A DNA stretch of 33,684 nt from Chlorobiota bacterium (GTDB lineage Bacteria; Bacteroidota; Ignavibacteria; Ignavibacteriales; Melioribacteraceae), in assembly GCA_013151245.1 (NCBI GenBank), contig JAADIR010000122.1, forward strand, positions 1 through 33,684, in the 5' to 3' direction. Of the stretch, positions 3,755 to 33,684 are shown piece by piece. The translations under genes and the position numbers were made by a program. The first letter of the stretch is position 1; each line of letters opens with the position of its first letter. The notes under the pieces were generated by a model that saw only the letters and a program-made list of their open reading frames with translations, had not been told where the DNA came from and did not search any database.

Positions 3755-3967
3755 TAGCCTTAATTATTTAGTTATTTATTAAACAATGACTGTAAAAATA
3801 ATAATATTCGCTTAATTTGCAAAAATAATTATTATTAAATATTTGTAAACGATGTATCTTACTTTGCAATTAAAGAATATTAGCAAGCATTTAGAGTAAG
3901 TTAAAATATTAAGAATGATTATTGAGTTAAAGATTATTTCTAATATGAATAACGTTGTTTACAAATT

Positions 3968-3990
3968 GAACCGCTTTGCGGTTCTTTTTT
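3968..3990 (+). terminator. Terminator-like hairpin GAACCGC-TTT-GCGGTTC followed by T6
   Basis: Perfect 7-bp stem (3968-3974 / 3978-3984), TTT loop, then TTTTTT (3985-3990). No annotated + strand gene lies upstream of it. Confidence 0.6.
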
Positions 3991-4010
3991 GCTCTCCAGC
4001 GTTTGTTCCC

Positions 4011-4154
4011 CCTTATGCTTTGCATAAGGTTATTCAACTTCGACTGCTTTGCAGTCGCAATTATTTACAAGTCCGAAGGACTTGAATATGAATAACTTCG
4101 GGCGTAGCTCGGAGAAATTCAACTACATTTATTTTTGCAACTACAAAGTAGTTG
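4011..4154 (+). repeat. Hairpin array, copy A (five short palindromes)
   Basis: CCTTATGC-TTT-GCATAAGG (4011-4029), CGACTGC-TTT-GCAGTCG (4041-4057), CAAGTCC-GAA-GGACTTG (4068-4084), AACTTCGGGC-GTA-GCTCGGAGAA (about 4094-4116), CAACTAC-AAA-GTAGTTG (4138-4154). Confidence 0.9.
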
Positions 4155-4312
4155 AATTATCGCCCAACTACTTTTTACTGAATTTTTCTCTCTATCACAT
4201 TCATATTTGAACAAATGTAAAGCATATCAAATTAGTGGAACTTAAACTCCCTTATAAGGTTTACCCTGAAATTTCTTATTTTTGTTTAATCTTAATGAAA
4301 AGGAATTGCAAA

Positions 4313-33357: not shown

Positions 33358-33432
33358 AAAAATAAAGGCGATAACAAACTATCGTCAAAAGGACATGTGT
33401 CAAAAATAGGAGTTTAGAAAAAACGTAAAGTT

Positions 33433-33577
33433 CAACTACTTCGTAGTTGTAAAATGGATTTTGAGTTATAACTCCGGGTTACACCCGAAGTTATTTACAT
33501 TCAAGTCCTTCGGACTTGTAATTTGTAATTGGACTGCGAAGCAGTCGAATTTTAATAGCCTTGTGCGAAGCGCAAGG
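33433..33577 (-). repeat. Hairpin array, copy B (inverted relative to copy A)
   Basis: CAACTAC-TTC-GTAGTTG (33433-33449), ATAACTCCGGGT-TAC-ACCCGAAGTTAT (33468-33494), CAAGTCC-TTC-GGACTTG (33502-33518), GACTGC-GAA-GCAGTC (33532-33546), CCTTGTGC-GAA-GCGCAAGG (33559-33577). Confidence 0.9.
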
Positions 33578-33684
33578 GAATTGAAATCAAAATAATAAAA
33601 GAATCGCAATCTGTCGCGGCGAAGACGGACGCGGTTCAATTAAAAGTAAATTTAAGTAATAGATAGTTTCTAAATCTGTTATTA

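Follow-up and report, generated by a model that had tools for sequence, protein, structure and literature searches.

A dispersed six-hairpin element in a Chlorobiota genome as a probable non-autonomous repeat of a Y1 transposase system

The window, a 33,684-nt stretch of a Chlorobiota draft genome (GenBank assembly GCA_013151245.1, contig JAADIR010000122.1), holds two copies of a six-hairpin element. We interpret this array as a non-autonomous REPIN/BIME-like repeat of a single-stranded DNA (ssDNA) transposase system, in which each half, or arm, would be the recognition end for a Y1 enzyme of subclass 1.2; we give this reading a probability of roughly 0.85. It builds on the anatomy of the arm, its covariation, its dispersal, its intergenic location and its tight association with transposase genes, all established at the level of sequence. 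An earlier note on this DNA had listed a REP/BIME-like mobile repeat among its options, and that option is now strongly supported, as the same arms adjoin Y1 transposase genes.

Anatomy and folding of the element

The earlier note had described an ordered array of five palindromes in two copies. Both copies are present where it had placed them and the order is real, but the copies are more than two, and the outermost, sixth hairpin had been missed, at 3968-3984 in copy A and 33601-33637 in copy B. The underlying plan is therefore not a list of five palindromes but two inverted arms of three hairpins each, set head to head in mirror symmetry and separated by 10-12 nt; hairpins 1-3 of the array are the reverse complement of the unit formed by hairpins 4-6. 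Read on its own strand, an arm consists of hpA (17 nt), an 11-nt linker (AATATGAATAA), hpB (19 nt), a spacer of 20-26 nt (about 23), hpC (17 nt) and AATTA. The linker is conserved among arms, with the consensus AATNTGAATAR. The features of the two copies are as follows, R1 being the covariance model of the arm, which was built from 14 arms, all from the source genome.

3963-4057, minus strand: copy A left arm, hpA-hpB-hpC on the minus strand (model R1, 88.2 bits, E 2.1e-12)
3968-3984, minus strand: copy A left hpC, GAACCGC-TTT-GCGGTTC on the plus strand (sequence; DNA fold)
4011-4029, minus strand: copy A left hpB, CCTTATGC-TTT-GCATAAGG on the plus strand (sequence; DNA fold)
4041-4057, minus strand: copy A left hpA, CGACTGC-TTT-GCAGTCG on the plus strand (sequence; DNA fold)
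4068-4159, plus strand: copy A right arm (model R1, 92.7 bits, E 4.1e-13)
4068-4084, plus strand: copy A right hpA, CAAGTCC-GAA-GGACTTG (sequence; model R1)
4085-4095, plus strand: copy A hpA-hpB linker, the conserved 11 nt AATATGAATAA (arm comparison)
4096-4114, plus strand: copy A right hpB, CTTCGGGC-GTA-GCTCGGAG (sequence; model R1)
4138-4154, plus strand: copy A right hpC, CAACTAC-AAA-GTAGTTG, followed by AATTA (sequence; model R1)
33428-33518, minus strand: copy B arm equivalent to the right arm of copy A (model R1, 91.3 bits, E 6.8e-13)
33531-33642, plus strand: the other arm of copy B (model R1, 78.1 bits, E 9e-11)

Folded as DNA, element A reaches -41.7 kcal/mol (z -8.0) and element B -36.4 kcal/mol (z -5.2), and no shuffled sequence folds as well as either. 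Across the 14 arms, standard pairs fill 99.0% of the pair cells, against 78.5% after shuffling and at most 36% when the pairing is slid. Both sides have changed at 15 of the 22 pairs, and each of the three helices shows compensatory substitutions. The arms have a covariation score of 0.652, compared with 0.252 after shuffling and no more than 0.10 when partners are slid. The selection on structure that had been suspected from the two copies is thereby borne out.

In copy B, about 21 nt are inserted at the tip of hpC (33601-33637). A second dispersed repeat, RTCTCGGCGAAGCGCAGCGRAGAC, occurs in the source genome in 23 copies at up to three mismatches, against 0 in the control, and is sometimes tandem; it lies inside the hpC tip on contigs C41 (5910-5933) and C171 (103-126), and the inserts in the hpC of C18 and in copy B (33604-33634) are shorter than this repeat but similar to it. 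Homology among some copies of the element runs tens of nucleotides past hpC. About 45 nt outside hpC, several copies carry a motif like TATTTTGGACAAATATG (window positions 4160-4220 and 33384-33427; C41, C171 and C295), which may be the end of the element or a promoter.

Copies and placement in the source genome

The source genome (3.58 Mb in 303 contigs) holds many more copies than those in the window. A DNA search returned six compact full copies, two on C167 and one each on C41, C295, C56 and C296, together with split or partial ones, and a search with model R1 returned 30 arms at E<=0.01. Paired arms always run minus then plus, with hpA innermost. The earlier note was prepared to drop its proposal if only two copies existed and no relatives carried the set; about 30 arms are present here, and arms occur in relatives as well. 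All 17 elements that we examined are intergenic, overlapping no open reading frame of at least 100 aa, and their neighbouring genes have varied orientations (divergent, tandem, or with the element after a gene); copy A sits between two divergent genes. The centre of a split element on C191, about 260 nt long, contained no gene when translated in three frames.

Members of a highly similar subfamily (C44, C107, C204, C76 and C293) lie where contigs end, which suggests that the assembly breaks at the arms. The draft contained no match at 1e-30 to the transposase clade that bears arms in other genomes. A cognate gene is either absent from this genome or unassembled; since the draft breaks at arms, it could have been lost with a short contig. 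The genome's own Y1_Tnp genes, on C69, C266 and C107, were considered as cognates and rejected, as each has hairpins of a different family on its flanks. The one on C69 (L039, G000:C69:817-1642) encodes a subclass 1.2-like protein of the MSVRSFTK type with the motif Y---Q--HH, and has mirror-symmetric four-hairpin arrays, 88% similar, on both sides, which belong to another hairpin family. Those on C266 (L040) and C107 (L041) have hairpin pairs of differing families, one of them GTAG-like.

Transposase genes flanked by arms in other genomes

When 29 relatives were searched at the DNA level with the whole array, only short matches came back, so a structure model was needed. With PF01797 (Y1_Tnp) genes mapped in 26 genomes, a Y1 gene was found to adjoin R1-detected arms directly in the relatives G002 (on C24 and C1), G057, G009, G037 and G036. 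We then scanned contigs with an alignment of five such arm-flanked proteins, selecting on protein alone with arms ignored, and kept the best 80 of 293 loci, a sample that is biased to near relatives of the query for that reason. The 80 loci include some from Ignavibacteria, Bacteroidales, Saprospiraceae, Balneola and Calditrichia, and also from Neomarinimicrobiota, a Cloacimonadota MAG and Parabeggiatoa. Named isolates are among them (Fulvivirga kasyanovii, Labilibaculum manganireducens, Mongoliibacter ruber and Gaoshiqia sediminis), which opens the system to experiment.

Model R1 found 262 arms in these best 80 of 293 loci. All 80 have an arm no further than 300 bp from the gene, and 57 have one on both sides; 154 of the 262 arms are no more than 200 nt away from the gene, where 25 would be expected from position, and 0 are inside it. 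At the same loci, the closest upstream arm is on the plus strand in 65 of 72 cases and the closest downstream arm on the minus strand in 59 of 65, the latter commonly no more than 4 nt from the stop codon; a minority of loci have the arm closest to the gene in the opposite orientation. The gene-bearing form in other genomes is arm(+)-tnpA-arm(-), often with more arms outside. A sequence-blind descriptor recovered 98 arms in 44 of the best 80 of 293 loci, compared with 1 in dinucleotide shuffles. In a survey of 200 genomes of the phylum, arms occurred in 17, the transposase clade (cut-off >200 bits) in 10 and both in 7, against 0.85 expected; the arm model was run with strict filters and therefore undercounts.

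The best match of an arm beside the gene is mostly another arm, dispersed or neighbouring, from the same genome. The upstream arm on C24 of G002, for example, has 21 matches of at least 45 nt within G002, compared with 1 in each other genome that has a match. As exceptions, arms of other genomes match the downstream arm on C1 of G002 just as closely, and the arms of G037 and G174 resemble each other's and those of G036. In Melioribacter-type arms (L145, L146 and L246; G037, G036 and G174), which are about 72 nt long, hpA, the linker and hpC are kept and hpB is lost, so hpB seems dispensable there. An orthologous intergenic site is occupied by arms in G174 and armless in G036, which has other hairpins there and flanks too diverged to place the ends of the element; we regard this comparison as modest evidence for movement.

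A strict rule parsed 127 of the 262 arms at the transposase loci, giving 381 hairpins. Of these, 300 are closed by a GNA loop, 57 by ANA and 4 by the complement, TNC or TNT, a strand asymmetry to which the model's own orientation contributes. G.T pairs make up 3.8% and mismatches 1.4% in the 127 parsed arms, the strict parsing itself favouring clean stems. The GNA triloop of the d(GCGAAGC) type is very stable in DNA. Together, GNA triloops on one strand and scarce G.T pairs point to folded single-stranded DNA rather than RNA.

The arm-flanked proteins are Y1/HUH enzymes of about 148 aa. The HUH and WQ motifs are present in all 80 proteins, and 77 of the 80 keep every motif intact, Y---Q--HH included (best 80 of 293 loci). 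A profile of the proteins matches the PDB entries of ISDra2 TnpA (2e-7) and ISHp608 TnpA (3e-7), and three of four arm-flanked proteins exceed the cut-off of NCBIfam NF033573 (IS200 transposase), the fourth scoring 54.8 against 55. Their signature (DH[IV]H, WQ, YIKNQKEHH, about 148 aa) is that of TnpA_Y1 subclass 1.2, an assignment made by comparing motifs with Table 1 of PMC6006769. The arm-bearing proteins form one clade (support 95/94), apart from other subclass 1.2-like proteins.

Proposed mechanism, alternative readings and known systems

We envision that, on a strand exposed at replication, the arm would fold into its trio of GNA-triloop hairpins. The Y1 enzyme, if it acts as IS608 and TnpA_REP do (PMC8266576), would bind this folded single strand and cut beside a hairpin foot, the linker AATNTGAATAR and the AAT after hpC being candidate sites; rejoining, on the same analogy, would then copy or move the repeat. 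Binding to ssDNA, cleavage at the foot and rejoining are proposed for TnpA_REP and REPs and established for IS608. In the dispersed form, present twice in the window, two arms face each other across 10-12 nt.

The compensatory changes in all three helices and the strong folding energy would also be expected of a transcribed array whose six hairpins act in cis, on stability or attenuation, or as a small RNA. We nonetheless consider such a structured RNA, which the earlier note had kept among its options, quite unlikely: the window gave 0 Rfam matches over the gathering cut-off, copies take all orientations to the neighbouring genes, G.U pairs amount to just 3.8%, and the arms, with their GNA triloops, tightly adjoin the gene of an ssDNA transposase. 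In addition, because the arms are inverted, one transcript would carry one GNA-loop arm and one complement. It is scarcely credible that the copies are bidirectional terminators, alike through selection on termination. A T run does follow the outermost hairpin of copy A on the plus strand, but the remaining hairpins of that copy lack one, copy A lies between divergent genes, where no terminator is expected, and termination needs no six ordered hairpins with conserved linkers.

A domesticated site for a host protein, acting in supercoiling, in the nucleoid or as a replication landmark, has been proposed for some REPs, and here would make the link to the transposase ancestral only. The intergenic placement would suit this role, and so would a source draft that has arms yet no gene for a cognate transposase. 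The highly similar copies of the C44/C107/C204/C76 subfamily instead suggest recent spread, and we judge the proposal improbable; host-protein use, the remaining option of the earlier note, would be compatible with a non-autonomous transposase repeat as a later or secondary role.

Among the known systems close to this putative transposase repeat are REP/BIME/REPIN elements with TnpA_REP (RAYT), as in E. coli, Stenotrophomonas and Pseudomonas: these are likewise dispersed intergenic inverted hairpin pairs with strand-specific hairpin features, and every family belongs with a Y1 gene that has repeats of that family on its flanks. Two broad hallmarks of REPs are found, namely dispersed extragenic copies often in inverted pairs (about 30 arms, 17 of 17 elements intergenic) and, in 80 of 80 loci of other genomes (best 80 of 293) but not in the source genome, a Y1 gene flanked by the repeats (a REPtron). 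The arms differ in that each has three hairpins at set distances, the triloops are GNA and the GT[AG]G foot is lacking. Read by eye, the arms of the source genome and the elements of the window had no 5' GTAG or GTGG within 0-2 nt of a hairpin foot; in the source genome hpB is preceded by AATAA, hpC by the A/T-rich spacer and hpA by the short centre. The enzyme differs too, with the class 1 motif Y---Q--HH (77 of 80, best 80 of 293 loci) and not the Y---NP of class 2, to which RAYTs belong. As the canonical GTAG foot is absent, the element would be a new REP variant and not a canonical REP; the earlier statement that it fits no feature class thus holds for the canonical form, but not for the REP/RAYT kind as a whole.

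Of the enzyme's relatives in the IS200/IS605 family, IS608 and ISDra2 have hairpin ends that are processed as ssDNA. Both of their ends bear a subterminal hairpin in place of inverted three-hairpin arms, and dispersed six-hairpin derivatives of the present kind are not known in that family. The GTAG- and CGTC-tagged palindromic repeats (PMC3733652) are likewise short and dispersed, some of them in Bacteroidetes/Chlorobi, but the arm hairpins inspected here show no such tag at their foot and the architecture differs.

Subclass 1.2 shares the protein signature of the present enzymes and is listed by Quentin et al. 2018 as 'REP: no', in Bacteroidetes (PMC6006769), whereas arms are present at all 80 loci of one clade (best 80 of 293). 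Their REP search demanded that the foot carry the tetranucleotide GTAG or GTGG (PMC6006769), so arms without one would have been missed. The arms are therefore a candidate DNA substrate for a transposase subclass described as having none, and hundreds of them offer a natural alignment for the Y1 choice of hairpins and cut sites. We hold the odds to be about even that subclass 1.2 Y1 enzymes and three-hairpin arms make up a separate, widespread class of ssDNA transposon plus repeat in Bacteroidota and neighbouring phyla, in which inverted arms, recognised by way of three GNA-triloop hairpins, would replace the GTAG-guided single hairpin of known REPs and the six-hairpin element would be the non-autonomous form.

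Other subclass 1.2-like genes (L115-L143 and L148-L149) vary in their surroundings. Some have no perfect hairpins nearby, and several have them no further than 220 nt away, with as many as 5 on one side where 0.1-0.7 would be expected for both sides together, contrary to the published absence of REPs.
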